DNA of 25,983 bases, from IMG/VR virus record IMGVR_UViG_3300027974_000144, positions 1 through 25,983 of that record; one strand, given 5' to 3'. The notes beneath the pieces are model-generated. The model ran no database searches, was not told the origin of the DNA, and worked only from the letters and a program-made list of their open reading frames with translations. Of this stretch, positions 3,260 to 23,707 are shown piece after piece. Position 1 is the first letter of the stretch. Each line of letters opens with the position of its first letter. Position numbers and translations under genes: made by a program. Origin of the DNA: a virus.

Positions 3260-3291
3260 CAATGTTAGTTACTATCTTGTGTATAACCTAA
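3260..3291 (-). promoter_or_regulatory. Minus-strand promoter, TAACATTG type
   Basis: On the minus strand TAACATTG occupies 3267-3260. Twenty bases upstream is TTAG (3291-3288), a weak match to the TTTG -33 element. The sequence upstream, including AAATAAATT, closely matches the promoter at 5871-5902, and the same -7 octamer occurs at 7530-7523. The start site should be near 3255, giving the gene at 2846-3250 only a very short leader. Confidence 0.6.
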
Positions 3292-3824: not shown

Positions 3825-4094
3825 TTAGTCCTCCCATCCATTAGACCAGTACCTTACAGCGTTGGCGTACGTTCCCTTTGTGCATCCTTTCAAATCGTCC
3901 CGTGATGGGATGACGTTTCCGTAGTAGTCGGTGAATGATTTCTTTGGTAGCATGCAGATGCCCATCTCGAGCAGTCGCATTGCCTCGCGTCCCATTGAGC
4001 CTTCCATCTTCCAAACGGATCCGTTGTTGATGAGTCGTTGCATGTAGTCAACACCTGCTGACTTTTGTCTTGAGTAAATTGTTTGTATGTTCAT
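3825..4094 (-). CDS. Conserved hypothetical protein, 89 residues
   Basis: Reads YMQRLINNGSVWKMEGSMGR and then ICMLPKKSFTDYYGN, PSRDDLKGCTKGTYANAVRYW. This pattern (YMQRLI.. GS.W..EG, ML.S...C, PK..., DYYGN.VPSRDDL) is one I know well from Bacteroidota phages and conjugative elements, always without assigned function. The full length of that type is present. ATG at 4094 overlaps the upstream TGA as ATGA. It is basic and soluble. Confidence 0.85.
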   Translation of the reverse strand: MNIQTIYSRQKSAGVDYMQRLINNGSVWKMEGSMGREAMRLLEMGICMLPKKSFTDYYGNVIPSRDDLKGCTKGTYANAVRYWSNGWED

Positions 4095-4303
4095 ATTTTG
4101 TTTTCTTTAACCCATATAACCATAAGTTCGTTTATTTCACCAATGATTGTTTGTCTATATTCTGAAAAGAATTTTGTTAACATCTGATTGCAGTCCTCAT
4201 CATTTAATGATGGAGGAATTCCGTTGGCCATTTCAATTGCGTTTCGCATGTCATTGGCGTGCCATGATAGGCAAGAGTCGGTGATAAAGTTTTTGTTGTT
4301 CAT
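4091..4303 (-). CDS. Hypothetical protein, 70 residues
   Basis: Begins MNNKNFITDSCLSWHANDMR; the rest is helical (NQMLTKFFSEYRQTIIGEIN, ELMVIWVKENKI). It follows the compact RNA element at 4325-4366 with the leader TTCAAATAAAAAAC then AAATAGAC before ATG, close to the leaders that follow the hammerheads. Soluble. No family is recognised. Confidence 0.7.
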   Translation of the reverse strand: MNNKNFITDSCLSWHANDMRNAIEMANGIPPSLNDEDCNQMLTKFFSEYRQTIIGEINELMVIWVKENKI

Positions 4304-4324
4304 GTCTATTTGTTTTTTATTTGA

Positions 4325-4366
4325 ACCACGGAGGGGAGTTGAACCCCTCTCGTTTCCTTTCGTGGT
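4325..4366 (-). ncRNA. Compact two-helix RNA element at a gene junction
   Basis: On the minus strand, ACCACG (4366-4361) pairs with CGTGGT (4330-4325) around an 11-nt strand AAAGGAAACGA and a GAGGGG/CCCCTC hairpin with loop TTCAACT; no base separates the two 3' strands, so the helices could stack. It sits exactly where the hammerheads sit at other junctions: its first base belongs to the TAA stop of the 4366-4902 gene and an A-rich leader follows. There is no CUGANGA core, so it is not a hammerhead, and no T tract follows, so it is not an ordinary terminator. The hairpin looks like a tRNA T arm, but no D or anticodon arm exists. Confidence 0.5.
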
Positions 4367-4902
4367 TAGTCGATGATGAAATCTTCTCTCAAGTTGAGTT
4401 GGTCAATTTCTTTTTCGCTGATGTTTACACCGCTTACAATAAAGGTATCGCAAGGATTTGGGAATAGCCATCCTACGCCAGGTCTGTAGTCAAATGCGTT
4501 ACGACCTATCAGTTCGTTTAACTCGTTTACATAGGCTCTAGCATCCTCAAAGTCGCCATTCATATTTGTTTCGACGTTATGGGTGGTCTCTTCCCAATTG
4601 TGCGTTAGCATCTGAGCAAGTGCCTTGTGCATGTCGATTGGGATGAAGTCCTCGACGTGGCTGTACTCTTTCAACTTGCCCTTGATGTGCCATACTAGGT
4701 CTTGCAGTTCACTAGACTCGTTAGGGCTGGGACTGATAGCCTCGATGTTGACGTCCTCTTCGATGATGTTGCACTGCTCCAACTCCTCGTGGTACACCTT
4801 GTTTTGGTGGGTGTCTAACCACTCGTGTACCTCTTGGATGTTCTCTGCATCTACTACCAACTCTGTGGCGTAGGTTCTGCTAATTACTACGTTGTATTTC
4901 AT
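4366..4902 (-). CDS. Hypothetical protein, 178 residues
   Basis: Starts MKYNVVISRTYATELVVDAE, a strand pair followed by the helix NIQEVHEWLDTHQNKVY. The middle is acidic (EEDVNIEAISPSPNESSE) and the C-terminal part has GRNAFDYRPGVGWLFPNPCD and ends REDFIID. ATG overlaps the upstream TGA. The opening looks like small early phage proteins in which a beta hairpin is followed by AENIQEAHEWL, but no function is known to me. It is strongly acidic and soluble, a composition often seen in host-protein inhibitors, though nothing here proves that. Confidence 0.75.
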   Translation of the reverse strand: MKYNVVISRTYATELVVDAENIQEVHEWLDTHQNKVYHEELEQCNIIEEDVNIEAISPSPNESSELQDLVWHIKGKLKEYSHVEDFIPIDMHKALAQMLTHNWEETTHNVETNMNGDFEDARAYVNELNELIGRNAFDYRPGVGWLFPNPCDTFIVSGVNISEKEIDQLNLREDFIID

Positions 4903-5387
4903 TTTAGTTTGTTGATTAAAGTGATGATGTTGTCCAATTGGGTCATGTGATTCTCGTAGTACTCTCGGAAGTCGTTCGAGGCTGAGTGGTTGTAGATTTG
5001 AGAGAACTCGTCCATCGCCACGTCCAATGTGTGTAGCATGGCATCGAAGTCCTCGGTCTTGTAGGCACCTAGGCCAGCCTCTTCTGGCTCGTCACTTTGA
5101 CTCGGCAGTCCAAGACCTTTGTTGATGCCTAGGAACATTGCCTTTGACTCTAGGTCATCCAAGAACCCGACCTCGATTCCATAGGTTGATGACTCATTCA
5201 AGATGCCGTTCTCTACTAGGCTCTCGCTGTTGTCCTCGTGCAGTTCGTACACCTCCTTGCTCATGTTCATCAAGTCGGGCACCTCTGATGAAAGTACTTG
5301 TTGGTAAATGAATCCATCCATGTCATAATACGTTTCGCAAGATGCCAAGTTTAGATTTTTCTTCTGGGTGTTTGTTAGTTTGTTCAT
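4899..5387 (-). CDS. Hypothetical protein with EVYELH-SESL motif, 162 residues
   Basis: I start it at the ATG at 5387 (MNKLTNTQKKNLNLASCETY), 18 bases after the hammerhead cleavage site; the ATG at 5435 lies inside the ribozyme. Residues about 45-75 read KEVYELHEDNSESLVENG and YGIEVGFLDD, matching the gene at 2846-3250. The C-terminal half is helical (DFDAMLHTLDVAMDEFSQ, MTQLDNIITLINKLK). It is acidic and soluble. The two paralogs each open a group of ATGA-coupled genes. Confidence 0.75.
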   Translation of the reverse strand: MNKLTNTQKKNLNLASCETYYDMDGFIYQQVLSSEVPDLMNMSKEVYELHEDNSESLVENGILNESSTYGIEVGFLDDLESKAMFLGINKGLGLPSQSDEPEEAGLGAYKTEDFDAMLHTLDVAMDEFSQIYNHSASNDFREYYENHMTQLDNIITLINKLK

Positions 5388-5399
5388 GTCGTTTGTTTT

Positions 5400-5466
5400 G
5401 GTTAAGACATGGATGAGTTTGCTATGCTCACCCATGTTTCGGATATCGAATCCTCGTCAGTTAACC
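5400..5466 (-). ncRNA. Type I hammerhead ribozyme (junction copy 4)
   Basis: Minus strand: stem I GGTTAA (5466-5461) with TTAACC (5405-5400); core CTGACGA (5460-5454); stem II GGAT/ATCC with loop TCGAT; GAAA; stem III ACATGGGTGAG with CTCATCCATGT (11 bp with one G-U) around a 9-nt loop; C17 at 5406. Cleavage is predicted between 5406 and 5405. The GGTTAA contains the TAA stop of the 5461-5847 gene. The released RNA starts TTAACCAAAACAAACGAC directly before ATG at 5387. All hammerhead core residues are present. Confidence 0.93.
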
Positions 5467-5847
5467 TTGGTCTCCCTCTCTCATTAATCTGTACTCTGAG
5501 CCCGATGCACAATCCCATATGGCCTCTTGGTCATGTTGCTCGCCCAATGCGATGGCAATCTCCTTGGTCTGCACGTTCTCAGAAATGTCGAAGATGAATC
5601 GGCCAGCATTGACCCAACATCCCATGTAGTAGTTCGGGTCGGCCAACTGCTCAGCATGGCGGAGGAAGTAAGAACGTCCGAATGCGATAAGGTCGCAACC
5701 ACTTGGAGCCGTCTCCTCGTATCCCTTGATGGATACCATGAATCCATGGTCGGGGTTGTGGTCGCCCGTGTTGATGTTGTAAGAGAAACCGATGTGGTTT
5801 GTTTCAGCGTTTCGCAAGTGTGCGATGAGGGTGTTTGGTGTTTTCAT
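5461..5847 (-). CDS. Hypothetical protein, 128 residues
   Basis: Starts MKTPNTLIAHLRNAETNHIG at 5847, with the leader AACAACAGAC before it and the promoter at 5871-5902 behind. A longer frame upstream of 5847 lies in the promoter and is rejected. The sequence has strands (HIGFSYNINTGD, HGFMVSIKGYE), a helix (RSYFLRHAEQLAD) and a CWVNAGRFIFDISENV strand pair. Members of this type occur in Bacteroidota phages without known role. The stop codon TAA is built into stem I of the following hammerhead. Confidence 0.75.
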   Translation of the reverse strand: MKTPNTLIAHLRNAETNHIGFSYNINTGDHNPDHGFMVSIKGYEETAPSGCDLIAFGRSYFLRHAEQLADPNYYMGCWVNAGRFIFDISENVQTKEIAIALGEQHDQEAIWDCASGSEYRLMREGDQG

Positions 5848-5870
5848 GTCTGTTGTTATTAAAGTGTTCA

Positions 5871-5902
5871 CAATGTTAGTTATTAGTTTTGTATTATGCA
5901 AA
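5871..5902 (-). promoter_or_regulatory. Minus-strand promoter, TTTG-N20-TAACATTG
   Basis: On the minus strand TTTG (5902-5899) is followed after exactly 20 bases by TAACATTG (5878-5871). The element fits the Bacteroidota -33/-7 layout, and the same spacing and octamer occur at 7554-7523. The predicted start near 5866 gives the gene at 5461-5847 a leader of roughly 20 bases rich in A. The stop codon of the gene at 5904-6077 lies just upstream. Confidence 0.75.
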
Positions 5903-5903
5903 T

Positions 5904-6077
5904 TTATTTTGAGCAAGCGATAATTATTTCTTCTTCGCTCTTGTATAGAAAGTGCCCGTTGTGGTATATATTCCCATGTCTATCGAGCATGATATCGTCA
6001 TGGCTCAACTCGATTGATTGGTACGTCCCCGTGCGTTGGCCGTAATTGTCTTCGTCGCAAAAAAAGTAGGTCTTCAT
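5904..6077 (-). CDS. Hypothetical protein, 57 residues
   Basis: ATG at 6077, TAA at 5904-5906, reading MKTYFFCDEDNYGQRTGTYQ, then an acidic run around SHDDIMLDRHGN, then HFLYKSEEEIIIACSK. The repeated strand pattern suggests a small beta sheet. It begins 7 bases after the stop of the 6085-6294 gene and ends next to the -33 element of the promoter at 5871-5902, so it closes the first transcription unit. No family is recognised; the clean open frame and fit to the spacing support it. Confidence 0.65.
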   Translation of the reverse strand: MKTYFFCDEDNYGQRTGTYQSIELSHDDIMLDRHGNIYHNGHFLYKSEEEIIIACSK

Positions 6078-6084
6078 GTTCTTG

Positions 6085-6294
6085 TTATTTTAGTTGGGCG
6101 ATTACCTTGTTGGATAGGCTCACATACATACTGCTATGGACACAAAAGTTGTTGTACTTCTCGGGGTCTTCGGCTATGTCTTGTAGCGTTAATTCCATGA
6201 TTTTCTCGATGCGCTCAGTTAAAAGTGCAACCTCGATGGTGTCAAGGCTCTTGATTAGGCCTCTTAATTTTTGTTCGTTGGTCTTGTTTTTCAT
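6085..6294 (-). CDS. Hypothetical helical protein, 69 residues
   Basis: Begins MKNKTNEQKLRGLIKSLDTI and is almost wholly alpha-helical (EVALLTERIEKIMELTLQDI, then a second helix VSLSNKVIAQLK). Charge pattern and lack of signal indicate a small cytoplasmic protein. The start at 6294 comes 20 bases after the cleavage site of the hammerhead at 6309-6364. Two plus-strand frames over this locus are shadows. No family is recognised. Confidence 0.75.
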   Translation of the reverse strand: MKNKTNEQKLRGLIKSLDTIEVALLTERIEKIMELTLQDIAEDPEKYNNFCVHSSMYVSLSNKVIAQLK

Positions 6295-6308
6295 GTCTTT
6301 GTTGTTTT

Positions 6309-6364
6309 GGTTAAGAGGGCTGGATGTCCAGCCCTTTCGTCTATTAAAGACTCTTCAGTTAACC
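6309..6364 (-). ncRNA. Type I hammerhead ribozyme (junction copy 3)
   Basis: Minus strand: stem I GGTTAA (6364-6359) with TTAACC (6314-6309); core CTGAAGA (6358-6352), where position 7, the variable one, is A; stem II GTCT/AGAC with loop TTAAT; GAAA; stem III AGGGCTGG with CCAGCCCT around ACAT; C17 at 6315. Cleavage falls between 6315 and 6314. The TAA stop of the 6359-6760 gene is the last three bases of the 5' strand of stem I. The product leader is TTAACCAAAACAACAAAGAC before ATG. Confidence 0.93.
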
Positions 6365-6760
6365 TTTTCTTGATTCTATCCAAAGTTTAGAGCGATAGTT
6401 CATCTCTGACTCAGACATTACCACGTCGATGAAGTCGGTTCCCTCTAGGTTCACCACGTTCAACTCTATGATTTGGTTTCCCTCGTCGACTAGCACATGG
6501 TATCCGTTCTCCTCGAACCATAGCCATGCCATCTGAAATTCAGTCTTGCTTGGGGCTTGGCTCATGACTTGGTGTAGGTCGGTATCTTGGAAGTGCATCT
6601 CGCTTCCGTCCAAGAAGTACAAGGTCTGGCGTGTCCCGTCGATGGTCTCCACAATGTGGGCTCTGACCTCGCCGTGCTCGATTACTTCGTACATGCTGTC
6701 GTCCTCGCTGGAGATGATGTAAGGCCATTTTACTTCTGGTAATTTGTTTAAGTGCTTCAT
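6359..6760 (-). CDS. Hypothetical protein, 133 residues
   Basis: Starts MKHLNKLPEVKWPYIISSED. Strand-rich first half (MYEVIEHGEVRAHIVETIDG, RQTLYFLDGSEMHF) followed by a helix with FQMAWLWFEENGYHVLVDEG. The WFEE..Y..... pattern is one I have seen in other small phage proteins where a surface-handled region reads AFRWFREK, as in the 406-864 gene, but similarity is too slight to call homology. Acidic, soluble. Expressed from an mRNA flanked by hammerheads on both sides (6774-6833 and 6309-6364). Confidence 0.75.
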   Translation of the reverse strand: MKHLNKLPEVKWPYIISSEDDSMYEVIEHGEVRAHIVETIDGTRQTLYFLDGSEMHFQDTDLHQVMSQAPSKTEFQMAWLWFEENGYHVLVDEGNQIIELNVVNLEGTDFIDVVMSESEMNYRSKLWIESRKG

Positions 6761-6773
6761 GTCTTTGTGTTTT

Positions 6774-6833
6774 GGTTAAGACATGGGCGATTGCTCACCC
6801 ATGTTTCGTCCATTTAGGACTCGTCAGTTAACC
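6774..6833 (-). ncRNA. Type I hammerhead ribozyme (junction copy 2)
   Basis: Minus strand: stem I GGTTAA (6833-6828) with TTAACC (6779-6774); core CTGACGA (6827-6821); stem II GTCC/GGAC with loop TAAAT; GAAA; stem III ACATGGG with CCCATGT around a 10-nt loop; C17 at 6780. Cleavage is predicted between 6780 and 6779. The stop TAA of the upstream gene lies immediately before GGTTAA. The released leader is TTAACCAAAACACAAAGAC and then ATG at 6760. This copy has the most canonical core of the four. Confidence 0.95.
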
Positions 6834-7166
6834 TTATTTGAATAGTTCGTGCCCTACTCGGAAGTTGCGCCTCTCCTCTCTCTCGCCAGCCTCTGAGATT
6901 TGAAATTTGGCGTTGTTCAAGAAAGTGATGAATTCCCTCTGGCTATCGTCGTCCGTGAATCCCCATGTCATGAGGTAGGTCTCGTTGTAGCGAACTTGAG
7001 CGATGATTTGAACGCTTGGCAAGGAGCCCCTCTCGTGGAACTTGGTTCCATAGGATAGGCTGAAGCCGTCGTCAGATTTGAGGGTGCCGTTGCTCTCAGC
7101 GTTGCGGGTGTACTGGCTCCATGTGATGTTGGAGATTGCCTTGATGAATTGTTGTGAAGTTTCCAT
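6834..7166 (-). CDS. Hypothetical protein, 110 residues
   Basis: I start it at the ATG at 7166 (METSQQFIKAISNITWSQYT), 21 bases after a hammerhead cleavage site; the ATG at 7211 is inside that ribozyme's stem II. The protein has strands SLSYGTKFHERGSLPSVQII and RYNETYLMTWGFTDDDS, then the helix REFITFLNNAKFQIS and ends RVGHELFK. The overall layout, with an N-terminal helix and a sheet then a helix, resembles the other early proteins here. No family is recognised. Confidence 0.75.
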   Translation of the reverse strand: METSQQFIKAISNITWSQYTRNAESNGTLKSDDGFSLSYGTKFHERGSLPSVQIIAQVRYNETYLMTWGFTDDDSQREFITFLNNAKFQISEAGEREERRNFRVGHELFK

Positions 7167-7181
7167 GTCTGTGTTTGTTTT

Positions 7182-7231
7182 GGTTAAGACGCCCGAGGGC
7201 GTTTCGGTCATTCAGACCTCGTCAGTTAACC
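7182..7231 (-). ncRNA. Type I hammerhead ribozyme (junction copy 1)
   Basis: Minus strand: stem I GGTTAA (7231-7226) with TTAACC (7187-7182); core CTGACGA (7225-7219); stem II GGTC/GACC with loop TGAAT; GAAA; stem III ACGCC/GGCGT with loop CTCG; C17 at 7188. Cleavage is predicted between 7188 and 7187. At 50 bases it is the shortest copy, close to a minimal hammerhead. It directly follows the TAA stop of the 7232-7498 gene, and its product leader is TTAACCAAAACAAACACAG plus AC before ATG. Confidence 0.94.
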
Positions 7232-7498
7232 TTATTCGTTCGGGCTCCCAAGTTCTCCCATCTGCAACTGGCCGTCCTCGTTGAACCATGGCTGGTACTC
7301 TCCATGCTCAGCAATCATGTCGTCAGTCTCATAGAAGCCAGAGTAGTCGGCTAGTTGTAGTTCGTGGCAAGCGCAGATGATGTCGCTCTCGTCTCCCAAT
7401 GTTGGGTGCTCGAAGAACTCAATCTGCTGTCCTTTGTCGTTCATCATTACCCCATAAGAGGTAGGGTTGTGGCTCATCAATTTGCTGTAGTTTATCAT
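7232..7498 (-). CDS. Hypothetical protein, 88 residues; first gene of the minus-strand operon
   Basis: Start ATG at 7498 (MINYSKLMSHNPTSYGVMMN). A TTG at 7525 in frame belongs to the promoter octamer and is rejected. The protein is acidic, with strand GQQIEFFEH, PTLGDESDIICACHELQLAD and the sequence YETDDMIAEHGEYQPWFNED. HPTLGDES followed by acidic runs is a pattern I have seen in small Bacteroidota phage proteins of unknown role. Its mRNA starts about 20 bases upstream and ends, after ribozyme cleavage, just past the stop. Confidence 0.75.
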   Translation of the reverse strand: MINYSKLMSHNPTSYGVMMNDKGQQIEFFEHPTLGDESDIICACHELQLADYSGFYETDDMIAEHGEYQPWFNEDGQLQMGELGSPNE

Positions 7499-7522: not shown

Positions 7523-7563
7523 CAATGTTACGACCGATTGTTGACAACACCAAACATGTCAAC
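7523..7563 (-). promoter_or_regulatory. Main minus-strand promoter, TTTG-N20-TAACATTG, with inverted repeat
   Basis: On the minus strand TTTG (7554-7551), 20 bases, TAACATTG (7530-7523), the best copy of this class. An inverted repeat GTTGAC (7540-7545) and GTCAAC (7558-7563), 7 bp if the flanking T and A are counted, brackets the -33 element and would be a natural repressor site. The predicted start near 7518 gives the first gene a 20-base leader containing AAAACACAAACGGAT. Confidence 0.75.
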
Positions 7564-11335: not shown

Positions 11336-11354
11336 ATTTCACGACAATTTGACA

Positions 11355-11380
11355 GAAAGGGCACCATTGGTGCCTTTTTT
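11355..11380 (+). terminator. Rho-independent terminator before groEL
   Basis: GGCACC (11360-11365) and GGTGCC (11369-11374) with loop ATT, extended by A-T pairs, then a T run. It closes the cluster of small basic proteins directly before the groEL promoter. Confidence 0.8.
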
Positions 11381-11383
11381 GTT

Positions 11384-11391
11384 TATATTTG
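11384..11391 (+). promoter_or_regulatory. groEL-groES promoter, TATATTTG
   Basis: TATATTTG starts 3 bases after the T run of the terminator and 17 bases separate it from the groEL ATG at 11409. This gives a short A-rich leader (CACAAATTAAATCAAAT), unlike most neighbours, which appear leaderless. Confidence 0.6.
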
Positions 11392-11408
11392 CACAAATTA
11401 AATCAAAT

Positions 11409-12980
11409 ATGATCGTAAAAGAAGTTGAATTTGGGGCCGAGGCCCGTGAAAAGCTAGTGTCTGGTATAGACATTATAGCAAATGCCGTCAAGAGCACCCT
11501 AGGTGCACGTGGACAGACCGTTCTGATCGAGTCAGACCAGTACACACACGGTATCCACATCACAAAAGACGGAGTTTCGGTGGCCAGGTCCATTATCTTG
11601 GACGACCCGACGCAGAACCTTGCGGTACAAATGGTAAAAGAGGCATCCGAGAAGACGGCGACAGCTGCCGGAGACGGTACCACTACCTCTATCGTGCTAA
11701 CCCAAGGCCTGATCCATGGATCACAGCAGTTCATGAAGGCCGAGGACAACCCGACAAAGGTTCTGAGAGAGGTAAAAGAGCTAGCACTGTCAGTTGCGCA
11801 GGCATTGGACAGTATGGCTATCCCAGTTACATACGATTCTATGGCCTCTGTAGCCACGATCTCAGCCAATAATGACCCAGAGTTAGGGCAGATCATCTCA
11901 GACGCTTACAGCATGGTCGGAAAAGACGGTGTGGTGACCGTTGAGACGTCTCAAAGCTCAAAGACTTACTCTGAGGTGGTATCTGGCATGAAGCTGGGCC
12001 GCGGATGGATGTCAAAGTACTTCGTCACTGACCAGAAGAAGAACGAGGCTATCCTAGAGGACTGCTACATCCTGATCTCTGACCAGGAGATTACATCATT
12101 GAACAATATCGAGCACCTGCTGGCACCGGTTGTGCAGAGCGGGAAGAGCATACTCATTATCGCCGAGATGTCGGAGAACGCTCTGAACTCTCTTAACCTT
12201 AACAGGCTGAAGGGTGTGATCAGGGCATGCGCGATCGTTCCACCGAGCTTCGGTCACATGAGATCCGAGATCATGGAGGACATCGCTGCTGCTACCGGAG
12301 CACGATTCATCTCTGACGGCACCGGAGACAACCTGTCTCTCGTATCTTTTACTGATTTAGGCCATGCCCAGAAGGTGGTGGTAGGAAAGGAGTCTACGAT
12401 TATCATCACTGGAGATGACAACTCTGAAGAGTTATCGTTACGCATCGAGGGAATCAGGAACAACCTGGCAGAGGCTACCAACGAGGGATTGAAGAAGTTC
12501 TTGGAGGAGAGGCTCGCTAACCTTGCGGGCGGTGTTGGCGTTATCTACGTCGGGGCTCAGAGCGATGTCGAGATGAAGGAGAAGAGGGACCGTGTCGAGG
12601 ACGCAGTGTACGCGACAAAGGCAGCGATGGAGGGGGGTATTCTTCCTGGTGGTGGTATTGCACTTTTGAACATAGCCGGAGAGATCTGCGGATGCTCTAC
12701 AGCTAAGAGCATTATCAAGTACGCACTGCAGCAGCCATTCAACGTGATCCTAGAGAACGGTGGTTATGACCCGAACGAGGTAAAGGGGGACATTGCCCTA
12801 AACTATCAAAATAGTTTCGGGTATGGATTCGACGTGAAGGAGGGGCTTGTAGGAAATATGATCGAGATGGGAATCATCGACCCCTTGAAGGTTACCAAGA
12901 GTGCACTGGAGAACGCTGTCAGCGTTGCTACCACGATCTTGAGCACCAACTGTATCATCACTAACGTAAGAGCAAAATGA
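11409..12980 (+). CDS. groEL: Phage-encoded chaperonin GroEL, 523 residues
   Basis: All three domains are recognisable. Equatorial: STLGARGQTVLIE near residue 30, ITKDGV at 51-56, the ATP-phosphate motif GDGTTT at 88-93, and GGGIALL with GNMIEMGIIDPLKVTKSALE in the C-terminal half. The apical domain contains SFGHMRSEIMEDIAAATGA. The ATPase aspartate of the RVEDA motif is present. Start at 11409: an in-frame ATG at 11349 would place the terminator in the coding region. It lacks the Gly-Gly-Met C-terminal tail of bacterial GroEL and is about 25 residues shorter than the E. coli protein. It should assemble folding chambers for phage proteins, perhaps the capsid or fibres. Gene order groEL-groES is the reverse of the bacterial operon. 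Confidence 0.95.
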   Translation: MIVKEVEFGAEAREKLVSGIDIIANAVKSTLGARGQTVLIESDQYTHGIHITKDGVSVARSIILDDPTQNLAVQMVKEASEKTATAAGDGTTTSIVLTQGLIHGSQQFMKAEDNPTKVLREVKELALSVAQALDSMAIPVTYDSMASVATISANNDPELGQIISDAYSMVGKDGVVTVETSQSSKTYSEVVSGMKLGRGWMSKYFVTDQKKNEAILEDCYILISDQEITSLNNIEHLLAPVVQSGKSILIIAEMSENALNSLNLNRLKGVIRACAIVPPSFGHMRSEIMEDIAAATGARFISDGTGDNLSLVSFTDLGHAQKVVVGKESTIIITGDDNSEELSLRIEGIRNNLAEATNEGLKKFLEERLANLAGGVGVIYVGAQSDVEMKEKRDRVEDAVYATKAAMEGGILPGGGIALLNIAGEICGCSTAKSIIKYALQQPFNVILENGGYDPNEVKGDIALNYQNSFGYGFDVKEGLVGNMIEMGIIDPLKVTKSALENAVSVATTILSTNCIITNVRAK

Positions 12981-23149: not shown

Positions 23150-23707
23150 ATGAAATCACCGCTCTACTTTGTGGTAGAGCCTGTTGGCGACAAGCTTTAC
23201 GACAGCACAACAGATTACGGGCTCATACTGAGCTCATCAAAGGAGGACCACACAGCAACCAATCGATTTGCTACGGTCATCGCCACTCCGATCGGTTACA
23301 CTGGGGAGATAGTCCCCGGCGACACACTCATGGTTCACCATAATGTATTCAGAAAGTACTTCGACGTGCGTGGTAAAGAGAAGTACGGGCCGTCTCACTT
23401 TAGGGACAGTACCTTCTTTATCGACTTCGACCAGTTTTTTTTATACAAGCACGATGATGTTTGGAAGGCACCGCACCCGTACTGCATGGTCAAGCCATTG
23501 GATAATGATAACTCCACTATTATCAAGAGCACCGACATGGAGAAGCCGCTGGTCGGTATCCTTAAGTACGGAAACGAGTACCTTTACTCTAAGGGACTGA
23601 AGGACGGTGACACGATCAGTTTCCAGCCGGAGAGCGAGTACCCGTTCACAGTGGACGGGGAGAAGCTGTACCGGATGCTTAGTAAGAACATATGCGTAGC
23701 CTTATGA
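23150..23707 (+). CDS. Two-domain protein with GroES-like features, 185 residues
   Basis: Residues about 5-100 and 110-185 each follow the order of GroES strands. In the first: YFVVEPVGD, YGLILSSS, FATVIATPIG, EIVPGDTLMVHHN, STFFIDFDQFFLYK. In the second: YCMVKPLDND, PLVGILKYGN, LKDGDTISFQPES, KLYRMLSKNICVAL. PGDTLMVHHNVF and DGDTISF match the GD-V-F turn of the barrel. I recall such proteins in other large phages just before the packaging genes. The fold is inferred; a mobile loop able to bind GroEL is not clear, so it may only share the barrel. It would be a second candidate partner for the phage GroEL. Confidence 0.55.
   Translation: MKSPLYFVVEPVGDKLYDSTTDYGLILSSSKEDHTATNRFATVIATPIGYTGEIVPGDTLMVHHNVFRKYFDVRGKEKYGPSHFRDSTFFIDFDQFFLYKHDDVWKAPHPYCMVKPLDNDNSTIIKSTDMEKPLVGILKYGNEYLYSKGLKDGDTISFQPESEYPFTVDGEKLYRMLSKNICVAL

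Follow-up and report, generated by a model that had tools for sequence, protein, structure and literature searches.

Clusters of hammerhead ribozymes in prophages were reported by Perreault et al. in 2011 (PMC3088659), who proposed that they cut long transcripts into gene-length mRNAs; they showed that three arrays cleave in vitro and one of them also cleaves in E. coli. Within the literature searched (mostly open access, with few subscription papers and no bioRxiv preprints) this report was the only direct precedent found for phage hammerhead operons. The initial annotation of the DNA analysed here had taken such runs to be undescribed, which the 2011 report shows to be mistaken; the hammerhead part of our locus is a further instance of that proposal, with a sharper layout. 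As in the clusters described there, several hammerheads occur in a row in phage DNA and flank single genes or short blocks. The present case differs by a quantified layout (a stop codon that abuts or falls within the ribozyme, an ATG shortly past the cut, a 6-bp stem I with conserved A flanks) and by a tRNA mimic that occurs among the hammerheads of the run; no counterpart of this mimic was found in the passages of that paper that were searched.

The Rfam families RAGATH-1-hammerhead (RF03152) and Hammerhead_1 (RF00163) share the core CUGANGA/GAAA/C17 and an open stem I with the elements described below, while RAGATH-1-hammerhead has an extra hairpin 5' of stem I, in the place of which our elements have coding sequence. 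In animal mitochondria (tRNA punctuation) and plant mitochondria (t-elements) an intergenic tRNA, or a fold resembling one, guides RNase P and RNase Z to release the messages. The tRNA-like minihelix of our locus (hereafter TLE) is distinct from these in being a 42-46 nt mimic of the acceptor and T arm, without an anticodon arm, which is located in phage operons, is exchanged with a ribozyme and is cleaved by prediction only. RNase P cuts phage M3 RNA, C4 antisense RNA, T4 gene 32 mRNA and other mRNAs (PMC11143913); these are individual substrates, whereas the TLE is a recurrent gene-junction element with a tRNA-like T arm and a D-loop-like GG.

The window (the whole stretch of DNA that was analysed, 25,983 bases) is IMG/VR record IMGVR_UViG_3300027974_000144. 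It encodes phage terminase, tail, GroEL, GroES and endolysin-like genes, and is assigned to a phage because terminase and tail proteins are present; a blastn search against annotated phage genomes returned no relatives of the window. The GroEL (11349-12980) and GroES (23150-23707) genes, both on the plus strand, are separated by 10 kb, and GroEL homologues were frequent among hammerhead-bearing loci. The genes of interest lie on the minus strand and are of unknown function: gene A (7232-7483; phrog_11770, with homologues in eight other phage loci), gene B (6834-7166), gene C (6359-6760; 60% identical in the relative L094), gene D (6085-6294), gene E (5904-6077), gene F (5461-5847; phrog_17808), gene G (4899-5387), gene H (4366-4902; with the TLE directly 3') and gene I (4091-4303). 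A promoter-like box, TAACATTG, which resembles the Bacteroidota TAnnTTTG -7 element, was identified by pattern count on the same strand at 7523-7530 (first unit), at 5871-5878 in the gap between genes E and F (5848-5903; second unit) and at 3260-3267, before another minus-strand unit; the window holds four copies compared to 0.95 expected. A noncoding stretch of approximately 430 nt on the minus strand (2260-2690) contains a structured motif twice (hairpin, GCAAAGGCTAnCCAnCAnTAGCC, hairpin, GAAA); one of the hairpins has a TTCGAAG cap, and Rfam gave no match there.

Four hammerheads of type I were identified on the minus strand. Hammerhead 1 (7182-7231) adjoins the stop codon TAA at 7234-7232 and is predicted to be cut after C17 at 7188, giving a new 5'-OH end at 7187 and a leader of 21 nt to the ATG at 7166. 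Hammerhead 2 (6774-6833) likewise adjoins a stop codon (TAA, 6836-6834) and has a predicted new 5' end at 6779, ahead of the ATG at 6760. In hammerhead 3 (6309-6364; predicted new 5' end 6314, ATG 6294) and hammerhead 4 (5400-5466; predicted new 5' end 5405, ATG 5387) the stop codon TAA of the upstream gene is located within stem I, at 6361-6359 and 5463-5461 respectively, so that the stop is inside the ribozyme in two of the four and adjoining in the other two. The predicted cut sites fall 18-21 nt 5' of the next ATG. All four share a GGTTAA/TTAACC stem I, CTGA[C/A]GA, a 4-bp stem II, GAA followed by A15.1, stem III, U16.1 and C17. The core residues C3, U4, G5, A6, N7, G8 and A9 with G12, A13 and A14 are present throughout, as are the A15.1-U16.1 and G10.1-C11.1 pairs and, at the cleavage site, H17 (C17 in every case). 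Three helices are formed with stem I open-ended, an arrangement backed by covariation (below) and expected of type I. A degenerate hammerhead pattern matched four times in the window compared to 0.01 expected from shuffles, and the minimum-energy fold of each element was the hammerhead (z -3.1 to -5.7). A looser pattern applied to the whole record was too unspecific for counting elements and was discarded. The initial annotation had placed four complete hammerheads with this stem I and every core residue at these positions, with 5' ends at 5405, 6314, 6779 and 7187; the pattern, the core inventory and the folding agree with it, and the predicted ends are the same. Its account of the junctions was also accurate: the 7-nt gap between genes D and E (6078-6084) is empty of any element, genes overlap at 4899/4902 and 4091/4094, the 5848-5903 gap holds the promoter-like box, and the different RNA it mentioned near 4325, without developing it, is indeed another structured RNA, in 4304-4365, and the more unusual of the two kinds of element.

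Taken at face value, the covariance-model check that had been proposed as a refuting condition for these elements went against them: Rfam returned no match at gathering score anywhere in the window, while hammerhead scores were obtained below it. At relaxed thresholds 6310-6392 scored 38.1 bits to RAGATH-1-hammerhead (E 0.004), this and a second score of 26.1 bits to the same family both being below its gathering cut-off of 56.3, and the best score to Hammerhead_1 was 21 bits (6793-6833) against a cut-off of 34, which is a detection threshold and not a structural criterion. At 20 further phage loci, relatives with the complete structure were missed at gathering score in the same way, and the miss in the window is therefore attributed to a threshold effect and not to failure of the fold.

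Relatives were fetched from viral contigs in two scans of at least 120 matches each, one with stem I fixed as GGTTAA and the other with only the core and loop II positions fixed; together the matches listed comprise more than 270 elements. All three inner stem II pairs were formed in 127 of 130 listed matches of the second scan, which made no demand on pairing (33 stem II types), compared to 15% with random partners, and stem I was paired at six of six positions in all 123 listed matches having stem III (59 distinct stems), compared to approximately 7% when dealt at random. With one core change allowed and one seed per locus set aside, 95 of the remaining listed elements had an intact core and 3 a single substitution, U4C in each case. 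Since stem I covaries and intact cores so outnumber substituted ones, catalysis is under selection. The U4C hammerheads (CCGANGA), with otherwise perfect stems, were found in L012, L028 and L132. Outside the search pattern, a flanking A was conserved at -1 (134/142) and at +1 (130/142) among the matches listed, which suggests a tertiary contact; on sequence grounds the elements are probably a type I subclass with a 6-bp stem I and a loop II contact. As a point against efficient cleavage, minimal hammerheads may be slow at physiological magnesium, and stem I is here 6 bp and open-ended. Same-strand runs of up to eight hammerheads were observed (eight in L128, at least six in L164, four in the window), and bacterial records carrying such hammerheads included ones from Pedobacter, Mucilaginibacter and Aquimarina, plus some metagenome-assembled genomes labelled as other phyla.

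The position of the elements relative to genes was scored by requiring an upstream frame of at least 50 codons ending between -12 and +20 of stem I and an ATG frame opening 8-50 nt past the cut. This layout was found at 92 of 126 and 105 of 148 hammerheads among the matches listed; the antisense strand gave 0 and 1, and random positions on the same strand 3-4%. Approximately half of the stop codons among the matches listed were inside the ribozyme, commonly as the UAA of stem I or the UGA of core CUGA. As a terminating ribosome would cover the 5' part of the ribozyme, cutting would probably follow the last ribosome. The identification as hammerheads and the proposal in the initial annotation that they cut the operon into cistrons are thus supported, at the level of sequence, by covariation, the intact catalytic core and a fixed stop, element and start geometry.

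An alternative in which the elements serve mainly as stabilisers of 3' ends, with cleavage incidental and a protective structured end or a short unstructured downstream leader being what counts, draws on the adjoining upstream stop codons, on a stem III that is often long and on the fact that hammerhead and TLE have in common mainly a compact structure at a gene end. A gene-end hairpin could act purely as a barrier to 3' exonucleases, but it would not conserve a catalytic core, and the 95 intact cores against 3 substitutions among the matches listed point to selection on catalysis and not on hairpins alone; we consider this explanation improbable, though it is the best placed of the alternatives.

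The junction between genes H and I is occupied by the TLE (4322-4367, minus strand), which reads AACCACG, an AAAGGAAACGA bulge, GAGGGG, TTCAACT, CCCCTC and CGTGGTT, overlaps the stop codon TAA at 4368-4366 and ends approximately 20 nt before the ATG at 4303. Its predicted fold is a 13-bp helix with an 11-nt one-sided bulge containing GG and a TTCAACT cap. The class as a whole mimics the top half of a tRNA, with an acceptor plus T-arm helix of 12-13 bp, a tRNA-like T-loop, a D-loop-like GG bulge and no anticodon arm. ARAGORN identified no tRNA in the window, and the TLE was unmatched by the Rfam tRNA model, its fold lacking the D stem and anticodon arm of the cloverleaf. No Rfam family for the TLE was found in the window or the further loci searched; matches of this region to RAGATH-17, PreQ1 and rli48 were far below cut-off and were taken as chance.

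In 2.08 Mb of hammerhead-selected DNA, a scan for minihelices with a T-loop yielded 21, compared to one in three Markov copies and none in the reversed sequence. In an alignment of 27 TLEs both partners vary at 12 of 13 pairs and 93% of cells are paired, in a set that was itself chosen by pairing; for this reason the scan enrichment is the cleaner test. The helix totalled 12-13 bp although it was free to extend, a length equal to that of the acceptor and T stems of a tRNA combined. The features of RNase P and RNase Z substrates are present (a coaxial acceptor/T helix of about 12 bp, a T-loop TTCRANY, a closing G-C pair and a GG that would dock in the T-loop), in elements for which the finder itself demanded the T-loop and pairing and, in some scans, GG. 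The D-loop-like bulge sequence TGGT was present in 45 of 56 TLEs, ATGGT having been in the search pattern for many of them, and positions 74-76 were mostly C, U and A where a tRNA would have CCA, U75 being partly selected since one scan demanded CT nearby. A covariance model (R1), from which T-arm matches resembling fragments of real tRNAs were left out (L242, L265, L327, L346 and L348), scored the window TLE at 47.8 bits (E 8e-10), the window TLE being within its training set, and found copies outside that set, for example in L172, L091 and L072. TLEs recur in phage operons, often next to hammerheads, two to four copies being present in several phages (four in L068, three in L109), and are interleaved with hammerheads on the same strand within one operon in L109, L173 and L066. 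Their stop codons lie at or just inside the 5' edge; the layout resembles that of the hammerheads but the statistic is weaker, both gene ends being found for 21 of 56. Longer tRNA-like elements with a small extra hairpin (e.g. TGCACAATGTGCA) between acceptor and T arm were observed in L012, L013, L036, L064, L065 and L118.

As tRNAs occur in phage genomes and their 3' ends serve integrases, the TLE might be read as the remnant of a tRNA gene or as an attP integration site instead of a processing signal. That reading was rejected as very unlikely: several different TLEs occur per phage (L068 and L109), both helices carry compensatory changes (in a set chosen by pairing), the anticodon-less length is constant, the L094 copy is almost unchanged, and a 5' acceptor strand is present, which would be missing from an attP.

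Homologous junctions were compared among phages. After gene A homologues a hammerhead was found in seven phages (the window, L097, L088, L039, L121, L048 and L079); L173 has a TLE there and L045 has neither. Other gene families are flanked on the same side by a hammerhead or by a TLE, depending on the phage, at lower identity. In the co-linear relative L094 the TLE differs by one base, while the gene H protein is 47% identical and no match to gene I was found. The counterparts of genes F and G share a single frame of 312 amino acids in L094 (9081-10019), with no hammerhead separating them. Candidate scars of deleted hammerheads, which fit deletion between TTAA repeats, were observed after the gene E homologue in L006, L015, L086 and L009 (GATTAATTAACC and GATTAACTAACC); GATTAATTAACC, from L006 and L015, equals a hammerhead minus its core. 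The exchange at homologous junctions, the near identity of the TLE in L094 and the scar candidates together argue that hammerhead and TLE do one job. Since some junctions have no element (the D|E gap of the window; L045), separation would not be essential everywhere.

The same comparisons bear on whether the elements could be recombination linkers between exchangeable small genes, that is, portable cassettes providing multi-frame stops and repeated DNA for module swapping. Stem I is often identical within a phage (GTCTAA four times in L134, GGTTAA four times in the window), stops occur in several frames and the GATTAATTAACC scars at gene E junctions may be core-deleted copies; against this, stems II and III vary between copies and covary, a linker has no need to keep catalytic residues, and TLEs sit at the same junctions yet share no hammerhead sequence, and we give this explanation little credence. 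Circularisation of the released messages, in which the 5' UUAACC of a cistron would pair with the GGUUAA of the next hammerhead before ligation, would be permitted by the identical stem I copies often found in one phage, but is scarcely plausible given the several different stem I sequences of the L164 array, its impossibility for the tRNA mimic and the failure of Perreault et al. (PMC3088659) to detect circular or spliced products.

We consider it likely, from the sequences, structures, covariation, core selection, layout and exchange established above, that all four type I hammerheads are active and act as cistron separators, and that a host-cut TLE does the same job at the H|I junction. In the proposed mechanism the small genes would be co-transcribed as one RNA, the upstream ribosome would terminate on the stop codon at or inside the 5' edge of the ribozyme, and the hammerhead would then fold and cut in vivo at its 3' edge, at a position set by chemistry at C17. 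The upstream message would retain its stop codon and a compact structured 3' end with a 2',3'-cyclic phosphate, and the downstream message would gain a 5'-OH end 18-21 nt before its ATG, with an unstructured A-rich leader. Host enzymes of tRNA processing (RNase Z, RNase P or both) would cut the mimic of the tRNA top half at the H|I junction, a step proposed from its resemblance to tRNA. Of the two, 3' cutting by RNase Z is the likelier, with RNase P the alternative, because the upstream message would keep its stop codon after a 3' cut but would often lose it, or have it split, after a 5' cut by RNase P, and because CCA, which blocks RNase Z, is usually absent from TLEs. The benefit may be independent stability and translation of each message.

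Neither the TLE nor an exchangeable tRNA-mimic separator was found in Rfam or in the mostly open-access literature searched, an absence that is weak evidence of novelty; the TLE as an exchangeable separator is probably new. We lean, by a small degree, towards the broader view that phages of Bacteroidota, and perhaps of other hosts, carry an unnamed class of tRNA top-half mimics which host RNase Z, RNase P or both would recognise and which would be interchangeable with hammerheads at homologous junctions, such that two unrelated RNA-cutting chemistries would serve one punctuation job. At its standard thresholds Rfam overlooks many phage hammerheads, and with them a class of structured RNA found repeatedly in phage contigs. 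For the self-cleaving ribozymes of phages, reported in 2011, the layout, the core selection and the replacement by TLEs point to a single job, the making of separate messages, a role which is directly testable in a model phage.
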